Position numbers and translations under genes: made by a program. 64,000 nucleotides of DNA from Hymenobacter caeli (GTDB lineage: Bacteria; Bacteroidota; Bacteroidia; Cytophagales; Hymenobacteraceae), in NCBI RefSeq assembly GCF_013294115.1, contig NZ_JABSNP010000018.1:1-64000 (forward strand). The letters run 5' to 3'. The notes below the pieces were generated by a model. It was not told the origin of the DNA, ran no database searches, and saw only the letters and a program-made list of their open reading frames with translations. Within the stretch, counting starts at the first letter, position 1. Each line of letters begins with the position of its first letter. Below, piece after piece: positions 32,844 through 38,759 of the stretch.

Positions 32844-34031
32844 ATGCTATTCGACGCCGCCAGCCCCGACCTTTCCATTAGCACTCCTTCGCTTGCCCCG
32901 GGCCCCGCCCCCCTTTCCCCGCCGGCCGAGGCCGTGCGGGCCGCCCGGGCCCTGGCCCCGCGCCTGTTTGCCCAAGCCGCCGCCACCGATGCCGAGGCCA
33001 CGTTCCCGGGGCAGGAGTTCGCCTGGCTGCGGGCCGCCGGGCTGCTCACCGCCCCCCTGGCCCCGGCCCTGGGCGGGGCCGGCCTGGGGGCCCCCGCCGC
33101 CACCGAGGCGCTGCTGGACGTGCTGCGCCACGTGGGCCGGGGCAACCTGGCGGTGGGTCGGCTCTACGAAGGCCACGTCAACGCCCTTCTGCTAATACAG
33201 TTGTACGGGCACGCGGCGCAGTTGCAGGGCTGGGCCGCCGATGCGGCCGCTGGCCGGTTGTTTGGGGTGTGGAACACCGAAGACCCCGCCCAGGGCGTGC
33301 GGCTCGAGCCCTTGCCCGGGGGCCGCTACCGGCTGTTTGGGGCCAAAACGTTCGCCTCCGGGGCCGGGTACGTGCACCGGCCGCTCGTCACCGGGGCCCT
33401 GGCGGAGGGGCACGGCTGGCAGATGTTCGTGCTGCCCGCCGACGCGCAGGCCCCCGCGCTGGACCGCAGCTTCTGGCGGCCGCTGGGGATGCGGGCCACC
33501 GCCAGCTACCGGGCCGACCTGACCGGCCTCGAAATCGGGCCCGCCGACTTGCTCGGCCCGCCCAACGCCTACTACCGCCAGCCGTGGTTCGGGGGCGGGG
33601 CCAGCCGGTTTGCGGCCGTGCAAATGGGCGGGGCCGAAGCGGTGTTCGACGAGACGCGGCGCTTTTTGCAGCGCCTGGGCCGCACCGACGACCCCTACCA
33701 GCGCCAGCGCCTGGGCCAGATGGCCCTGCTGCGCGAAAGCGGCCGGCAGTGGCTGCGCGGGGCCGCCGCCCGCGCGGCCCTGCCCGCCGACGCCGCGGCG
33801 GGCCCCCAGCCGGCCGCCGCGGCCTACGCCGGCCTGGTGCGCACCGCCATCGAGCAAATTGGCCTGGCCATGCTGCCCCTGGCCGAGCGTTGCGTGGGGG
33901 CCCGCGGCCTGCTCCAGCCCGAGCCCTTCGAGCGCCTGCACCGCGACCTGACCCACTACCTGCGCCAGCCCGCCCCCGACGCCGTGCTGGCCGACGTGGG
34001 CCGCTTCGTGCTGGACGGCCACGATTTTTAG
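32844..34031 (+). CDS. Acyl-CoA dehydrogenase family protein (divergent)
   Basis: The 395-residue protein has the acyl-CoA dehydrogenase layout: N-terminal helices with LLTAPLAPALGGAGLGAPAA, a central beta domain (LFGVWNTEDPAQGVRLE, YRLFGAKTFASGAGYV, FWRPLGMRATASYRADL) and C-terminal helices (GLAMLPLAERCVGARGLL). The usual catalytic glutamate signature is not evident, so the chemistry may differ. It is followed by a PIG-L deacetylase and a NodS-like methyltransferase on the same strand; divergent members of this family are found in such sets. FAD-dependent oxidation of an acyl or amino-sugar-linked substrate is plausible but not shown. ATG 32844 is preferred over 32799. Confidence 0.8.
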   Translation: MLFDAASPDLSISTPSLAPGPAPLSPPAEAVRAARALAPRLFAQAAATDAEATFPGQEFAWLRAAGLLTAPLAPALGGAGLGAPAATEALLDVLRHVGRGNLAVGRLYEGHVNALLLIQLYGHAAQLQGWAADAAAGRLFGVWNTEDPAQGVRLEPLPGGRYRLFGAKTFASGAGYVHRPLVTGALAEGHGWQMFVLPADAQAPALDRSFWRPLGMRATASYRADLTGLEIGPADLLGPPNAYYRQPWFGGGASRFAAVQMGGAEAVFDETRRFLQRLGRTDDPYQRQRLGQMALLRESGRQWLRGAAARAALPADAAAGPQPAAAAYAGLVRTAIEQIGLAMLPLAERCVGARGLLQPEPFERLHRDLTHYLRQPAPDAVLADVGRFVLDGHDF

Positions 34032-34118
34032 GACGGCCGCGTCCCGTTTTTATATTCCCAAGCAGTCGACTGAACGTAAACGCTTGTCGGCTTTAAGTAA
34101 GCCTTTATTACCCAAAAC

Positions 34119-34155
34119 GGAAGCCAATGGCTAACAGCTGAAAGCCAGTAGCTGA
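34119..34155. repeat. Short repeat of the GGCTAACAGCTGAAAGCCAGTAGCT type
   Basis: Three imperfect units GCCAATGGCTAACAGCTG, AAAGCCAGTAGCTG lie directly upstream of the PIG-L start. They share the TAACAGC core with the nuoM-nuoN array. Confidence 0.55.
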
Positions 34156-34162
34156 ACACTTG

Positions 34163-34906
34163 ATGCGCATGCTGCCCTTTGCCGAATACCCGTTGCGCCC
34201 CGCCGAATTTGCCGCTACGCTGGGGCCCACGGTGGTGGTGGTGCCGCACCCCGACGACGAGGCCCTAGGCTGCGGAGGCCTGCTGGCGCTGCTGCGGCAA
34301 GCGGGCCAGCCGGTGCACGTCGTGCTGGTGAGCGACGGCTCGATGTCGCACCCGCAATCGGTCCTGTTTTCGGCCGAGGCCCGGCGGGCCGTGCGCGAAG
34401 GCGAGCTGCGCCACGCGCTGGCGCTGCTCGGCGTGCACACCGAGCCGCTGCCGCTGCGCCTGCCCGACGGCCGCGTGCCTTCCAGCCCCGGGCAGCCCGG
34501 CTTTGCCGAGGCCGCCGCGCGGCTGCGGGCACTTTTGCTGGCCGCCCGGCCCGCCACCGTGCTGCTGCCCTGGCGGCGCGACCCCCACCCCGACCACCGC
34601 GCCAGCTACCAGCTGGCCCAAGCCGCCCTGGCCGGGCTGCCCGGGGCCCCGCGCCCGCTCGAATACGTGGTGTGGGCCTGGCAGCGCGCCGCCCCTGCCG
34701 ACCTGCCCCAGCCCGCCGACCAGGTGGCGGGGTTCCGGCTGGCCATCGACGCCGTGCTGCCCCACAAGCTGCGGGCCATTGCCGCGCACCGCTCGCAGGT
34801 GGCCCCCGGCGTGTTCACCGACGACGCGGCGGGGTTTCTGCTGGCCGACGAGATGCTGGCGAAATTCGCCCAGCCCACCGAAGTATTTTTTGAAGCCGCC
34901 CCATGA
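34163..34906 (+). CDS. PIG-L family N-acetylglucosamine-type deacetylase
   Basis: The 247-residue enzyme has the family's zinc motif PHPDDEALGCGG (H29, D31-E33) and the second metal histidine motif HPDH (142-145). PIG-L/LmbE proteins remove N-acetyl groups from GlcNAc-containing lipids, thiols or antibiotics. No signal peptide, so it acts in the cytoplasm. It overlaps the next gene by four bases (ATGA), showing coupling to the NodS-like methyltransferase. ATG 34163 is used; a TTG one codon earlier is ignored. Confidence 0.9.
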   Translation: MRMLPFAEYPLRPAEFAATLGPTVVVVPHPDDEALGCGGLLALLRQAGQPVHVVLVSDGSMSHPQSVLFSAEARRAVREGELRHALALLGVHTEPLPLRLPDGRVPSSPGQPGFAEAAARLRALLLAARPATVLLPWRRDPHPDHRASYQLAQAALAGLPGAPRPLEYVVWAWQRAAPADLPQPADQVAGFRLAIDAVLPHKLRAIAAHRSQVAPGVFTDDAAGFLLADEMLAKFAQPTEVFFEAAP

Positions 34907-35499
34907 ACGAGAACCAGCCCAACACCCTCGGCGAACAATATTTTGACGCCGTGTACCGCGCCAACGACGACCCGTGGGGCTTCGAAACCAGCCCCTACGA
35001 GCACGCCAAGTACGCGGCGTCGCTGGCCGCCTTGCCCCGGTCGCACTACCCGCAGGCGTTCGAGATTGGGTGCTCGCTGGGCGTGTTCACGGCGCTGCTG
35101 GCCCCGCGCTGCGGGCGGCTATTGGGCGTCGATGTGAGCGAGCAGGCCCTGGCGCGGGCCCGCCAACGCTGCGCCGACCTGCCGCAGGTGGCGCTGGAGC
35201 GGCGGCGGCTGCCCGACGAGTTTCCCGAGGGACAATTCGACTTGGTTACCCTGTGCGAAGTGGGCTACTACTGGAACCCGGCCGATTTGGCCCGCGCCGC
35301 CGCTGGCATCGCGGCGGCCGTGCCCGCCGGGGGCCAGCTGCTGCTGGTGCACTGGACGGCCCCGGTCCACGATTACCCCCTCACGGGCGACGAGGTGCAC
35401 GAATTTTTTCTGCAACGGGCGGGGCCCGACGGCCCCTGGCGGCACCTTAGCGGCCAGCGCCAGCCCCAGTACCGGCTCGACGTGCTGGAAAAGCGTTAG
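34903..35499 (+). CDS. NodS-like SAM-dependent methyltransferase
   Basis: The 198-residue protein has the NodS-type front LGEQYFDAVYRANDDPWGFETSPYEHAKYAASLAALP, the SAM-binding loop FEIGCSLGVFT (motif I, about 53-63) and the acidic GVDVSE (D77). NodS N-methylates the deacetylated glucosamine end of lipochitooligosaccharides; here the preceding gene is a deacetylase, so an analogous deacetylate-then-methylate sequence on an amino sugar is a reasonable inference. It is translationally coupled to that deacetylase. Confidence 0.88.
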   Translation: MNENQPNTLGEQYFDAVYRANDDPWGFETSPYEHAKYAASLAALPRSHYPQAFEIGCSLGVFTALLAPRCGRLLGVDVSEQALARARQRCADLPQVALERRRLPDEFPEGQFDLVTLCEVGYYWNPADLARAAAGIAAAVPAGGQLLLVHWTAPVHDYPLTGDEVHEFFLQRAGPDGPWRHLSGQRQPQYRLDVLEKR

Positions 35500-35777
35500 C
35501 TGCGCGCTGCCGCCAGCTACCCCCAATGAGCAGCTACTTTAACTGGTATTCGCACGATGTAGAGACGCGTCCTCGCGTTTCAGGCTTGAACGAGGCCACT
35601 GGAGTGCCTGCCAGGATGGCGTGCAAATCTGCTGCCGGACCTGCTGTTCAAGCCTGAGTTGCAAGGGTGCGCCCTTAGCTCCGTTTCAGGAGCTGAGGCA
35701 TCCACACAAAACAGTTTTTTGGGGACGGGACAATAATCCAGCGAGGGCAAAACACAAAGTTTTCTGGTTTATATAAA
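35500..35777. other. Intergenic segment with repeat remnants
   Basis: No gene is seen in about 280 bases. It holds TAGAGACGCGTCCTCGCGTTTC (35560-35580 region), the inverted pair AGGCTTGAAC / GTTCAAGCCT (about 35582-35591 and 35648-35657) and a small hairpin AGCTCC...GGAGCT (about 35680-35695). These look like remains of a dispersed non-coding repeat. The promoter of the next gene should lie in its AT-rich right end. Confidence 0.45.
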
Positions 35778-35797
35778 TTTAATTGCAGGCAATTAAA
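35778..35797. promoter_or_regulatory. Perfect 20-base palindrome, probable OhrR/MarR operator
   Basis: TTTAATTGC (35778-35786) and GCAATTAAA (35789-35797) are exact complements around a two-base centre AG. It lies just ahead of the OhrR-type regulator gene and overlaps an AT-rich promoter-like stretch (TATAAATTTA). MarR/OhrR proteins bind AT-rich inverted repeats of this size, often repressing their own gene, so autoregulation is likely. Confidence 0.7.
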
Positions 35798-35834
35798 CTT
35801 TATGCGGCTAAATCCCGTTTTGAGTCCGACCGCC

Positions 35835-36287
35835 ATGAGCAAGCCAGCCGACATGCCTTCCGCCAACCCCTTGCAGCAGCTGGACAAGCAGCTGTGCTTC
35901 CCGCTGTACGCGGCTTCGCGGATGCTGACTAAAGCCTATCAGCCCCACTTGCAAGAGCTGGGCCTCACCTACCCCCAGTACCTCGTATTTTTACTGCTTT
36001 GGCAGTACCAGGAACTGACGGTGAAGCAATTGGGCGAACAACTGCTGCTCGATTCGGGCACACTCACCCCCTTGCTCAAGCGCATGGAGCAGAAGCTGTG
36101 GGTGAGCCGTCGCCGCGACCCGCGCGACGAGCGCTCGGTCATCGTCGGGCTGCTGCCCGCCGGGCGCGACTTGCAGCAGCGGGCCGGCCACGTGCCCGAA
36201 AAGCTGCTCGAAAAGTTGGCCCTGACGCCCGCCGCCTTCGAAGCCCTGCGCCAGCAGTTGCAAAACCTTCTAACCCAGCTGGCTTGA
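35835..36287 (+). CDS. OhrR-type MarR-family redox-sensing repressor
   Basis: The product is 150 residues from the chosen ATG. It matches OhrR: LDKQLCFPLYAASRMLTKAYQPHL, LTYPQYLVFLLLW, a winged helix (LTVKQLGEQLLLDSGTLTPLLKRMEQ) and RDPRDERSV. The peroxide-reactive cysteine C21 and the tyrosines Y35 and Y46 have the same spacing as C15, Y29 and Y40 of Bacillus OhrR. Starts at 35802, 35835 and 35853 are all possible; 35802 would leave almost no leader after the operator. No ohr gene is adjacent; the likely targets are the monooxygenase and DJ-1 genes downstream. Confidence 0.88.
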   Translation: MSKPADMPSANPLQQLDKQLCFPLYAASRMLTKAYQPHLQELGLTYPQYLVFLLLWQYQELTVKQLGEQLLLDSGTLTPLLKRMEQKLWVSRRRDPRDERSVIVGLLPAGRDLQQRAGHVPEKLLEKLALTPAAFEALRQQLQNLLTQLA

Positions 36288-36423
36288 TAGGCCCACCGTT
36301 TTTTAGGGCCTGTTTTAGGGCGTCAGCACCGGCTGGGCCCAAGGGTGCCGCGCACCCGGGCAGATAACCCAGGCTATTATCCACCCTCTGGCGCGGCCAC
36401 GCCCGCGTTCCCCTCCTTTTATC

Positions 36424-36732
36424 ATGAGCCCTTCCGCTGACATTATTTGCGTGGCCGCCGAATGGCGCACGCGGCCCGAACAAGCCGAAGCCGTGCGCCA
36501 GCTGATGCGGCAAGCCGCCGCGGCCGTGCGCGAAAATGAACCGGGCAACCTGCTTTACCTCGGCCACCAGGACCCGACCGACCCCGCGCACTTCCTGTTC
36601 TACGAGCAGTACGCCGACCAGGCCGCCCTGGAAGCCCACCGCGACTCGGCCCACTACCAGCAGCTGGTGCTGGGCCAGATTGTGCCCTTGCTGACGGAGC
36701 GCACGGTGACGTTTTATAAATTACTCGGATAG
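36424..36732 (+). CDS. Antibiotic biosynthesis monooxygenase-type (quinol monooxygenase-like) protein
   Basis: The 102-residue protein is a single ABM ferredoxin-like domain: IICVAAEWRTRPEQAEAVRQLM, ENEPGNLLYLGHQDPTDPAHFLFYEQYADQAALEAHRDSAHYQQL. YgiN-type members oxidise quinols or handle quinone stress without a cofactor. It is 136 bases downstream of the OhrR-type regulator and 45 bases upstream of the DJ-1 gene, all on the plus strand, which suggests a shared electrophile or peroxide response. Confidence 0.85.
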   Translation: MSPSADIICVAAEWRTRPEQAEAVRQLMRQAAAAVRENEPGNLLYLGHQDPTDPAHFLFYEQYADQAALEAHRDSAHYQQLVLGQIVPLLTERTVTFYKLLG

Positions 36733-36777
36733 TTTTTCGGGCCCCCAACCCGCGTTTTTCACTTTTTTTTGATTCCC

Positions 36778-37458
36778 ATGAAAATCCTGATGGTGCTGAC
36801 CTCGCACGACCAACTCGGCGACACCGGCAAAAAAACCGGCTTTTGGCTGGAAGAATTCGCTGCTCCCTACTACGTGTTTAAAGACGCCGGCGCGGCCCTG
36901 ACCCTGGCCTCGCCCAAAGGCGGCCAGCCGCCCCTCGACCCAAGCAGCGACAGCCCCAGCGCCCAAACCGAAGCCACCGAACGCTTCAAGAAAGACCCCG
37001 CCGCCCAGCAGGCCCTGGCCCACACCGCGACGCTCGCCAGCGTATCGGCCGCCGATTACGATGCCGTGTTTTACCCCGGCGGCCACGGCCCCCTTTGGGA
37101 TTTGGCCGAAGACAAAATCTCCATCGCGCTGATTGAGAACATGTACGCCGCCGGCAAGCCCGTGGCCGCCGTATGCCACGCCCCCGCCGTGCTGCGCCAC
37201 GCAAAAGCCGCCGATGGCTCGCCACTTGTGAAAGACAAAGCCGTAACCGGCTTCACCGACACCGAAGAAGTGGCCGTGCAGCTGACCGACGTGGTACCCT
37301 TCCTGGTAGAGGACATGCTGAAAGCCAACGGCGGCAACTACTCGAAAGGAGCCGACTGGGCCCCCTACGTAGTAAGCGCCGACCACCTCATCACCGGCCA
37401 GAACCCTGCCTCGTCGGGCCCCGCCGCCGAAGCCCTGCTGGCGATGCTGGCCAAGTAA
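36778..37458 (+). CDS. DJ-1/PfpI (type 1 glutamine amidotransferase-like) protein
   Basis: The 226-residue protein has the DJ-1 nucleophile elbow AAVCHAPAVL (C133-H134), a conserved glutamate near residue 25 (GFWLEEFAAPYYVF) and DYDAVFYPGGHGPLWDL. This is the larger Hsp31/GATase1-like subgroup (YhbO/HchA relatives), whose members convert methylglyoxal or protect proteins from glyoxals. The role here is inferred from the family and its place after an OhrR-type regulator and ABM gene. ATG 36778 (MKILMVLTSHD) is used. A strong terminator follows. Confidence 0.87.
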   Translation: MKILMVLTSHDQLGDTGKKTGFWLEEFAAPYYVFKDAGAALTLASPKGGQPPLDPSSDSPSAQTEATERFKKDPAAQQALAHTATLASVSAADYDAVFYPGGHGPLWDLAEDKISIALIENMYAAGKPVAAVCHAPAVLRHAKAADGSPLVKDKAVTGFTDTEEVAVQLTDVVPFLVEDMLKANGGNYSKGADWAPYVVSADHLITGQNPASSGPAAEALLAMLAK

Positions 37459-37477
37459 GCTCAACCAGCTACCCTTG

Positions 37478-37527
37478 AAAAGCCGCCCTGGCTGTCCCCG
37501 TTTCCGGGGCGGCTGGGGCGGCTTTTT
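37478..37527. terminator. Bidirectional terminator between convergent genes
   Basis: AAAAGCCGCCC (37478-37488) pairs with GGGCGGCTTTT (37516-37526), with a further internal stem around CCCCG/CGGGG. It serves the plus-strand DJ-1 gene and the minus-strand glycosyltransferase. Confidence 0.85.
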
Positions 37528-37541
37528 GCATTTACTGCTTG

Positions 37542-38759
37542 TTATTCGGCGCCGGTGGTCTGGGCCCGCAGCCAGGCCAGGGCCTCGCTCAGCGGCACTT
37601 GCGGCACGGCCACTCCGGCAGCGGCCCGGGCCTGCTCCACCCACTCCCAGAGCCGGCCAAACGTGCGGCTGCCCAGCACCTGCCGGGCCAGGGGCTTGCC
37701 GGCCAGGCCCAGGGCAGCGGCCACGCCCTGCCCGGGAGCCCCAAAAGGAACCGCGTGGGCCCACCAGGTGCGCAGCCGCCGCCGCGCTTGCCACAACGCC
37801 GCCAGGTGGCGCGGGCAGGGAACCTGGGGCTCCAGATTTTCCGCGGTTTGCGCGGCCCACTCGCGCAGCTGCCACGAAAGGCCCACCTCCACACGCCCGC
37901 AGCGGCGCGGCGAGGTGTGCACCACCACGCGGGGGCTGTGGCGCAGGCGCAGGTCGTGGCGGCGCAGCTGTTGGCACAGGGCTTCGTCTTCAAGGTAGCG
38001 GCGCACGGGCAGGCCCCCCACGCGGCGGTAGACGCGGGCCGTGAGGGCCAGACTAGCCCCGAAGTGCTGGTGGTGGCGCGGCCACGGGTCGGCGGCCTGG
38101 GGGTCGAGCCGCGCCTCGAGCCGGGCGCAGAGCAGGTGGTAGGCCGCGTCGCGCAGCTGAGTGCGGCGCACCGGACAGCGCCCGCTGGGCGCGGCGTCGG
38201 TGAGGATGCGGCCGCCCACGGCGTCGGCCCCGGCCGCAATTTCGGCCCGGGTGGCCGCCAGCCAGTCGGGCGCCACCCGGGTGTCGGCGTCGGTACTGGC
38301 AATGAGGCCGTTGAAGCGCCCCAGGCCCAGTAGGCGCTGGCAGGCTTCGTCCATCAGCAGGCGGCGGGCGCGGCCCACGTGGGCATCGGAGGCGGCCAGG
38401 CACAGGGTGGCCACGTGCAGCGCCAGGCCGGGACGCTGGCCGGCAAACCGCCGCACGGCAGCGGCCGTACCGTCGGTGCAGTTGTTGGCTAGCACGATTA
38501 CCTCGAAGGTGCCGGGCGGCAGGGGCTGCCCGGCCAGGTCGGTTTGCGCGGCCAGGGCGGCCAGTGTGGCGGGCAGCGCCGCGGCTTCGTTCTTGGCAGG
38601 TATGATGACGCAGGCCCGCAGCGCGGCGTGGGGCGGGGGCAGCTGCCGCCGCAGCTGAGCCGCGTAGTCGGGGGCATGGTCAGGGGCAGCGGGTACCGGG
38701 GTGGGAGCGGCGGCGGCTTCGCGGGCGGCTTGGAAGCGTAGCGGAGTGGCGGTGTTCAT
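37542..38759 (-). CDS. Glycosyltransferase family 2 (GT-A) protein
   Basis: The 405-residue protein shows the GT-A fold: ACVIIPAKNEAAALPATLAAL, VIVLANNCTDGTAA, and IASTDADTRVAPDWLAAT with the metal-binding DxD. A YLEDEALCQQLRRHDLRLRHSPRVVV block follows, with the acceptor acid ED. No membrane helix is obvious, so it is cytoplasmic or peripheral. It is transcribed toward the DJ-1 gene. Together with the acyl-CoA dehydrogenase, PIG-L deacetylase and NodS-like methyltransferase 2-5 kb away it resembles a set found clustered elsewhere; here the OhrR module separates it from them. Confidence 0.87.
   Translation of the reverse strand: MNTATPLRFQAAREAAAAPTPVPAAPDHAPDYAAQLRRQLPPPHAALRACVIIPAKNEAAALPATLAALAAQTDLAGQPLPPGTFEVIVLANNCTDGTAAAVRRFAGQRPGLALHVATLCLAASDAHVGRARRLLMDEACQRLLGLGRFNGLIASTDADTRVAPDWLAATRAEIAAGADAVGGRILTDAAPSGRCPVRRTQLRDAAYHLLCARLEARLDPQAADPWPRHHQHFGASLALTARVYRRVGGLPVRRYLEDEALCQQLRRHDLRLRHSPRVVVHTSPRRCGRVEVGLSWQLREWAAQTAENLEPQVPCPRHLAALWQARRRLRTWWAHAVPFGAPGQGVAAALGLAGKPLARQVLGSRTFGRLWEWVEQARAAAGVAVPQVPLSEALAWLRAQTTGAE

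Follow-up and report, generated by a model that had tools for sequence, protein, structure and literature searches.

In the first 64,000 nucleotides of contig NZ_JABSNP010000018.1 of Hymenobacter caeli (assembly GCF_013294115.1; hereafter the window), four genes encode an acyl-CoA dehydrogenase (ACD)-like flavoprotein, a PIG-L (LmbE) family zinc de-N-acetylase, a NodS-like S-adenosylmethionine (SAM) methyltransferase, and a family-2 glycosyltransferase (GT2). It is nearly certain that these genes are a real system, and they very probably serve one pathway. On balance we favor the view that they constitute one biosynthetic cassette for an N-methylated, flavin-oxidized amino-sugar product linked to stress, with the product and the order of the steps deduced from family chemistry. 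No description of the cassette was found in the open-access literature, subscription papers and preprints being outside the search.

The ACD-like (32844–34031), PIG-L (34160–34906), and methyltransferase (34903–35499) genes lie on the forward strand, the latter two sharing 4 bases (34903–34906, ATGA), and the GT2 gene (37542–38759) lies on the reverse strand, 2.0 kb beyond the methyltransferase gene. A preliminary description of this stretch had recognized the divergent ACD, the PIG-L protein with HPDDE and HPDH motifs, the overlapping NodS-like gene, and the opposite-strand GT2 gene, all of which lie where it placed them. Its remark that the four families often adjoin in other bacteria is borne out by full sets in five phyla and by joint presence or absence within the genus.

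Linkage of the Four Genes within the Genus

Whole-genome profile searches of 61 genomes of the genus (E ≤ 1e-20, kinship of the genomes uncorrected) matched all four genes in 52 genomes, none in five (G010, G015, G052, G054, and G059), and part of the set in four (G012, G025, G028, and G029). The methyltransferase and the ACD were each matched in 54 genomes, the ACD match of G029 being incomplete with an internal stop, and the GT2 in 53. The raw PIG-L tally of 59 also counts weak paralogues; the orthologue is absent from the five cassette-free genomes and fragmentary in G012 and G029. G025 has no ACD and only short methyltransferase and GT2 matches, and G028 has no GT2, its methyltransferase match lying at the end of a 3.5-kb contig. 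A match is not equivalent to an intact gene: in six genomes the ACD match comes in two pieces, and in G014 that of PIG-L contains a stop. The cassette genes are spread over different contigs in G004, G036, G043, and G046.

The order ACD, PIG-L, and NodS-like gene, followed by a convergent GT2 gene, is present in 37 of 40 genus neighborhoods, in most of which the cassette sits between purH and an outer-membrane protein gene (neither flank is found in L071, no outer-membrane protein match in L062, and purH is ∼4 kb away in L050). The nearest named relative among the loci compared is that of Hymenobacter nivis (L151), with 84% identity in both the ACD and the GT2.

Decaying copies of the cassette were also seen. 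The ACD is missing from L057 (G025), and L073 (G029) and L074 (G012) have partial ACD and PIG-L matches, with the methyltransferase and GT2 gone.

Linkage beyond the Genus

A draw of 247 genomes from the phylum was searched with the methyltransferase (E ≤ 1e-22) and ACD (E ≤ 1e-40) profiles, only part of the first-look candidates being scored in some genomes. The methyltransferase profile matched seven genomes and the ACD profile five; these five are the same five that have strong methyltransferase matches (E below 1e-70), the two genes are less than 2 kb apart in each, and three of the five belong to this genus. The cassette is thus a near-constant feature of this genus and rare across the phylum.

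A public collection with one genome per species was scanned with a six-sequence methyltransferase alignment, which yielded 478 confirmed relatives, and the genes within 4.5 kb of the methyltransferase were examined in the best 80. Among these best 80 of 478 loci, an ACD is present in 74, a GT2 in 68, and a deacetylase of any kind in 71 (PIG-L in 57, a polysaccharide-deacetylase cluster in 13, and a divergent PIG-L in one). ACD, deacetylase, and GT2 occur together in 64 of the 80, with PIG-L itself in 54 of these, and the cassette thereby survives a test set in advance, namely that a lack of linkage among close homologues would speak against a system. Fifteen plasmid loci were also taken from the best matches: ten hold all four genes, L078 has another deacetylase, and four are incomplete, among them L077, which lacks GT2, and L086 and L088, which have the methyltransferase and GT2 only. 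Since both samples were picked by likeness to the cassette methyltransferases, the linkage applies to this subfamily and not to all NodS-like enzymes. Four further loci comprise three with all four genes (L170, L171, and L172) and one with no PIG-L match (L173).

The whole set is found in Bacteroidota, Cyanobacteriota, Actinomycetota, Pseudomonadota, and Deinococcota; an Acidobacteriota locus (L152) has the cassette with a divergent PIG-L, and a short Chloroflexota contig (L137) has ACD, methyltransferase, and GT2. Carriers include Deinococcus, Hymenobacter, Nostoc, Methylobacterium, and Acinetobacter, as well as Rubrobacter, with another deacetylase. The patchy spread and the frequent plasmid location suggest horizontal transfer of the cassette.

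The listing of 90 neighbor clusters contains many antisense frames, which come from G+C-rich DNA; clusters were used only where Pfam or annotation named them, so that further recurring partners may have escaped notice. An ATP-binding cassette (ABC) transporter cluster is present in 16 loci, one member of which (L148) was checked by Pfam (ABC_membrane and ABC_tran); several of the 16 come from the same few genera, and we make no claim for the transporter as a cassette partner. An apparent GT2-ACD fusion in Methylobacterium (L080) was set aside, as the middle of its frame looks out of frame by eye, and it is probably a frameshifted GT2 gene beside an ACD gene. A second trio, comprising a group-1 glycosyltransferase, a UDP-galactopyranose mutase, and a protein resembling glycoside hydrolase family 1 (GH1), lies beside the cassette, whole or in part, in three phyla (L075, L088, L116, L132, L150, L152, and L164).

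The ACD-like Flavoprotein

The first protein is a divergent relative of the ACDs, matching PF02771 at 7.5e-6 and, as its best NCBIfam model, SfnB, far under the cut-off of that model. Its AlphaFold2 model (predicted local distance difference test [pLDDT] 92.4) is nearest in the PDB to TdsC, DszC, and 5gj7/5z8t (“Flavin-containing monooxygenase”), with template modeling (TM) scores of ∼0.8. A 51-row profile of the flavoprotein is led by DszC (1.9e-38), MsuC (4.2e-33), and TdsC (1.1e-32), with ACDs from 2.9e-31 and, lower in the list, 3m9v (a flavin adenine dinucleotide-dependent oxidoreductase, which we take to be KijD3; 1.6e-24), a nitrososynthase (1.9e-21), and DnmZ (4.2e-20). DszC, TdsC, MsuC, and the sugar nitrososynthases likewise have the ACD fold, there used for flavin monooxygenation.

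Arg106, His111, Lys168, Arg333, Asp368, and Gln375 are invariant in all 51 rows. Gln375 aligns with the glutamate of the GEGT/YEGT motif in two ACDs of the same genome (L180 and L181) when one inserted residue just before it is dropped, so that the C-terminal catalytic glutamate of medium-chain ACDs is replaced by glutamine in every row. At the position used by isovaleryl-CoA dehydrogenase (IVD), no glutamate is present within residues 248–262 of four cassette rows, in an alignment that held no IVD-type protein. Compared with DszC, the flavoprotein has Arg, Trp, and Gln at the positions of His92, Asn129, and His391, the last being the Gln375 column; Ser172 (45 of 51 rows) and Trp211 (43 of 51 rows) were compared with DszC Ser163 and Trp205. 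We take Ser163, Trp205, His92, and His391 to be the residues with roles in DszC. The glutamine at 375 and the lost DszC histidines therefore set the protein apart from standard dehydrogenases and from standard DszC enzymes alike.

The label acyl-CoA dehydrogenase in the preliminary description is accordingly misleading, the nearest folds and profiles being those of DszC, TdsC, and MsuC, and the gene product is probably not an ACD in function. The flavoprotein does match the Pfam ACD families, just above or below their cut-offs, as would be expected of an ordinary ACD whose gene is a chance neighbor of the other three or only co-regulated with them. We regard this explanation as highly improbable: the catalytic glutamate is a glutamine, two kinds of deacetylase occupy one slot (see below), and the genes are co-conserved over several phyla and jointly present or absent in the genus, on which grounds chance adjacency was rejected.

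The flavoproteins of two Deinococcus plasmid loci (L075, 4896–7244; L087, 1190–3529) have an extra N-terminal domain of ∼400 residues. That of L075 is 35%–49% identical to separate cassette-adjacent proteins in Acidobacteria, Kaistella, and Spirosoma, one of which (L152) is a marginal GH1 match.

The Deacetylase Slot

The PIG-L protein matches PF02585 (E 8e-27, 94.7 bits against a cut-off of 28.2), and the residues of its HPDDE and HPDH motifs (His30, Asp32, Asp33, Glu34, Asp145, and His146), which presumably bind zinc, are conserved in 27 of 27 rows. Its relationship to BshB and MshB raises the question of whether the cassette makes a low-molecular-weight thiol or cofactor such as bacillithiol or mycothiol. 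The protein scores far under the cut-offs of the curated BshB/MshB models, however (54.4, 54.1, and 26.6 bits against 182.5, 195.25, and 224.35, respectively), the cassette itself contains no GT4 glycosyltransferase and no ligase, and the tertiary-amide link that would follow from an N-methylated amine would be unlike bacillithiol or mycothiol; a thiol product is thus very unlikely.

The PIG-L gene is not the only occupant of this position. The 13 loci with a polysaccharide deacetylase (NodB-type, PF01522) among the best 80, together with plasmid L078, are all actinobacterial (Rubrobacter, Solirubrobacter, and their kin); PF01522 was confirmed by Pfam on L078 and L096, and by a custom profile at the other loci. 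The NodB-type gene is directly upstream of the ACD in 11 of these 14 loci (L092, L093, and L097 have no ACD), and all 14 lack a PIG-L match. That either of two unrelated deacetylase families fills one slot argues that the pathway includes a deacetylation. A Pyr_redox-type (pyridine-nucleotide reductase-type) gene, checked by Pfam on L078, follows that of the methyltransferase in 12 actinobacterial loci without PIG-L, which fits a flavoprotein in need of reducing power.

The Glycosyltransferase

The GT2 protein matches PF00535 (5.2e-11), and its structure model (pLDDT 91.3) has the GT-A fold, with matches to solved GT2 enzymes. The acidic residues of its DxD and ED motifs, including the catalytic acidic residue (Asp157, Asp159, Glu257, and Asp258), are conserved in 36 of 36 rows. 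A hydropathy scan found no strong membrane segment in any of the four cassette proteins, the GT2 included.

The Methyltransferase and Comparison with Nod-Factor Clusters

The methyltransferase matches PF05401 (NodS) at 2.7e-15, and NF041650 at 3.3e-20 with 72.6 bits, a score so far below the 300-bit cut-off that the enzyme is NodS-like and not NodS. In a midpoint-rooted tree, four annotated NodS proteins form a clade of their own (support 100/100) on a long branch, and the window methyltransferase falls outside it. The proposal that NodS is an offshoot of the cassette enzyme was not retained, as the tree does not decide it (support 84/89, midpoint root, and one short row, L101).

In the Nod-factor clusters examined, nodC, nodB, and nodS adjoin, and thus a GT2-type synthase, a deacetylase, and a NodS-family methyltransferase likewise stand in one cluster. 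The cassette differs in mostly having PIG-L instead of NodB, in its additional flavoprotein, and in its GT2, which is not NodC and has no strongly hydrophobic segment; nodA is annotated in none of the cassette loci inspected. Three of the cassette domain types are also found in one chain, in single GT2-NodS-PF01522 proteins encoded on plasmids of Sulfitobacter indolifex (L174, 4402–7482) and Mesorhizobium (L175, 4486–7398). These trifunctional proteins have the NodB-type deacetylase, and no ACD-like gene is annotated within ∼5 kb of them. Together with the nodC, nodB, and nodS clusters, the fusions are read most simply as pointing to one sugar that is transferred, deacetylated, and N-methylated.

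The same logic in nodC, nodB, and nodS would also suit a Nod-factor-like glycolipid or oligosaccharide of the envelope, the acyl part of which the flavoprotein would desaturate or oxidize. Additional glycosyltransferases in Novosphingobium, Bosea, and Pedobacter loci, as well as the group-1 glycosyltransferase, UDP-galactopyranose mutase, and GH1-like genes in Deinococcus, Acidobacteria, and Kaistella, point in this direction, and the ABC transporter recurring in 16 loci (identified by Pfam in L148 only) could be a flippase. Such extra sugar genes are confined to a minority of loci, however, and no likely sugar acyltransferase was seen in the annotated plasmid loci or in the few identified clusters, most of the 90 being unidentified. 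With the dehydrogenase glutamate missing from the flavoprotein and the four proteins devoid of strong membrane segments, we consider such an envelope product a minority possibility.

A Possible Link to Stress

Desiccation tolerance is usually credited to trehalose, hydrophilins, catalases, exopolysaccharide, and DNA repair. The names of the cassette enzymes were not found in two desiccation papers (PMC6181384; PMC7142981). In Acinetobacter baumannii, ACICU_02432–02435 are marked as one operon, and in two colistin-dependent mutants their expression falls by 31- to 62-fold (RNA-seq; PMC5660220, Table 2). The same list of 33 downregulated genes contains those for trehalose-6-phosphate synthase and phosphatase, along with an operon of two genes, one for a hypothetical protein and one for a catalase (PMC5660220). 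By product name ACICU_02432–02435 belong to the same four families, and this, with the matching gene order at the A. baumannii locus L170, where all four profiles match, suggests that they are the cassette. The Acinetobacter version differs in that the glycosyltransferase gene is on the same strand and is short (214 residues in the A. ursingii equivalent, L171), and the available portion of PMC5660220 does not discuss the function of the four genes. ACICU_01425–01426, we infer, are the dtpC-katE operon, which is important for desiccation survival of A. baumannii according to a 2026 report (PMC13232832).

On the A. ursingii plasmid (L171, 1–13145), one flank of the cassette carries genes for a catalase and for an iron-containing redox enzyme (PF14518), and the other carries trehalose-synthesis genes. 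Ku is encoded near three of the 95 loci L075–L169, and a Paraburkholderia locus has a small catalase, but only the methyltransferase and GT2. These catalase, Ku, and trehalose neighbors, counted without a matched control, are suggestive; the expression evidence is stronger, albeit from a single study of mutants with broad changes.

Proposed Pathway

In the pathway that we propose from family chemistry, the soluble GT2 would transfer one N-acetylated amino sugar, probably resembling N-acetylglucosamine, onto an acceptor, and the deacetylase would then expose the amine. The NodS-like enzyme would methylate the freed nitrogen with SAM, and the flavoprotein, built like a reduced-flavin monooxygenase, may oxidize the product, possibly at the amine. 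The expression and neighbor evidence from other bacteria suggests that the product would act in a general stress or desiccation response, beside trehalose and catalase. An N-methylated amino-sugar glycoside is a likely product. The preliminary description had proposed that the set builds and modifies an amino-sugar-containing metabolite or lipid; the family functions, the NodB-type substitution, and the GT2-NodS-deacetylase fusions are consistent with such putative chemistry.

Several observations weigh against this proposed pathway. ACDs follow close behind the DszC group in the fold comparison, with similar TM scores, and closely in the profile list as well; both DszC His92 and His391 are replaced in the flavoprotein (Arg106 and Gln375), so that monooxygenation is a tentative assignment. 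The nearest solved GT2 relatives, PcManGT, WrtF, and the K4 chondroitin polymerase, have query TM scores of only ∼0.4, and the donor cannot be read from the fold. Nor is the linkage complete: in the phylum draw two weaker methyltransferase matches occur without an ACD, nine of the best 80 loci, three being short contigs, have no deacetylase, L103 and L157 carry the methyltransferase without any other cassette gene, and five of the 15 plasmid loci have no PIG-L or lack other members near the methyltransferase, including that of Deinococcus radiodurans (L087), in which a helicase gene interrupts the set and no GT2 is nearby. With respect to stress, large catalases are near only five of the 95 loci, and the link comes from other bacteria, the usual Hymenobacter neighbors being purH, the outer-membrane protein gene, and ubiA.

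More speculatively, and in our estimation improbably, the cassette might define a new class of protectant, in which the flavoprotein oxidizes the nitrogen of an N-methylated amino-sugar glycoside (to an N-hydroxyl, nitroso, or nitrone group) to give a small radical-quenching or glass-forming molecule made on drying and shared horizontally among several phyla. Were the proposed pathway correct, desiccation tolerance would include an overlooked protectant or envelope component, co-regulated in Acinetobacter with trehalose synthesis and catalase, and the transfer, deacetylation, and N-methylation chemistry of Nod factors would be widespread beyond symbiosis.

Inserted Genes and Neighboring Features

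The gene order in the window is purH on the reverse strand (a name that, like mreB, was assigned by reading the sequence, without a family search); the ACD-like, PIG-L, and NodS-like genes on the forward strand; a MarR/OhrR-type regulator (35802–36287), an ABM-domain monooxygenase-like protein (36424–36732), and a DJ-1/PfpI family protein (36769–37458), also on the forward strand; and then the GT2, an Omp85-domain protein, and UbiA, all on the reverse strand. Among the 40 genus neighborhoods, OhrR and DJ-1 matches above 50 bits occur, besides the window, only in L035 (G037), and an ABM match in none; ABM relatives elsewhere in the genus are located at other places. In L036 (G053), as close a relative as L035, only 4 bases separate the ends of the methyltransferase and GT2 matches, and L041 and L042 have a methyltransferase-GT2 gap of 2.8–2.9 kb without OhrR, ABM, or DJ-1 genes. 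The three genes, near-absent from the genus neighborhoods, were dropped as part of the cassette, and the restricted distribution of OhrR and DJ-1 indicates a lineage-specific insertion unrelated to it, in agreement with the preliminary description, which had suggested a later insertion or rearrangement separating the glycosyltransferase gene from the rest.

The same description had reported repeat remnants at 35560–35700. A dispersed palindromic element (resembling repetitive extragenic palindromes or miniature inverted-repeat transposable elements) does lie here, outside the cassette, at 35547–35671 between the methyltransferase and OhrR genes. Parts of 35547–35602 match seven other places in the genome (81%–90% over 36–49 nucleotides), four of the matches forming two opposite-strand pairs, and an inverted repeat (35566–35591 and 35646–35671) is 77% complementary, its arms 54 nucleotides apart. 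Beside the GT2, the outer-membrane protein gene is represented by two or three tandem matches in L059, L060, L064, and L072.

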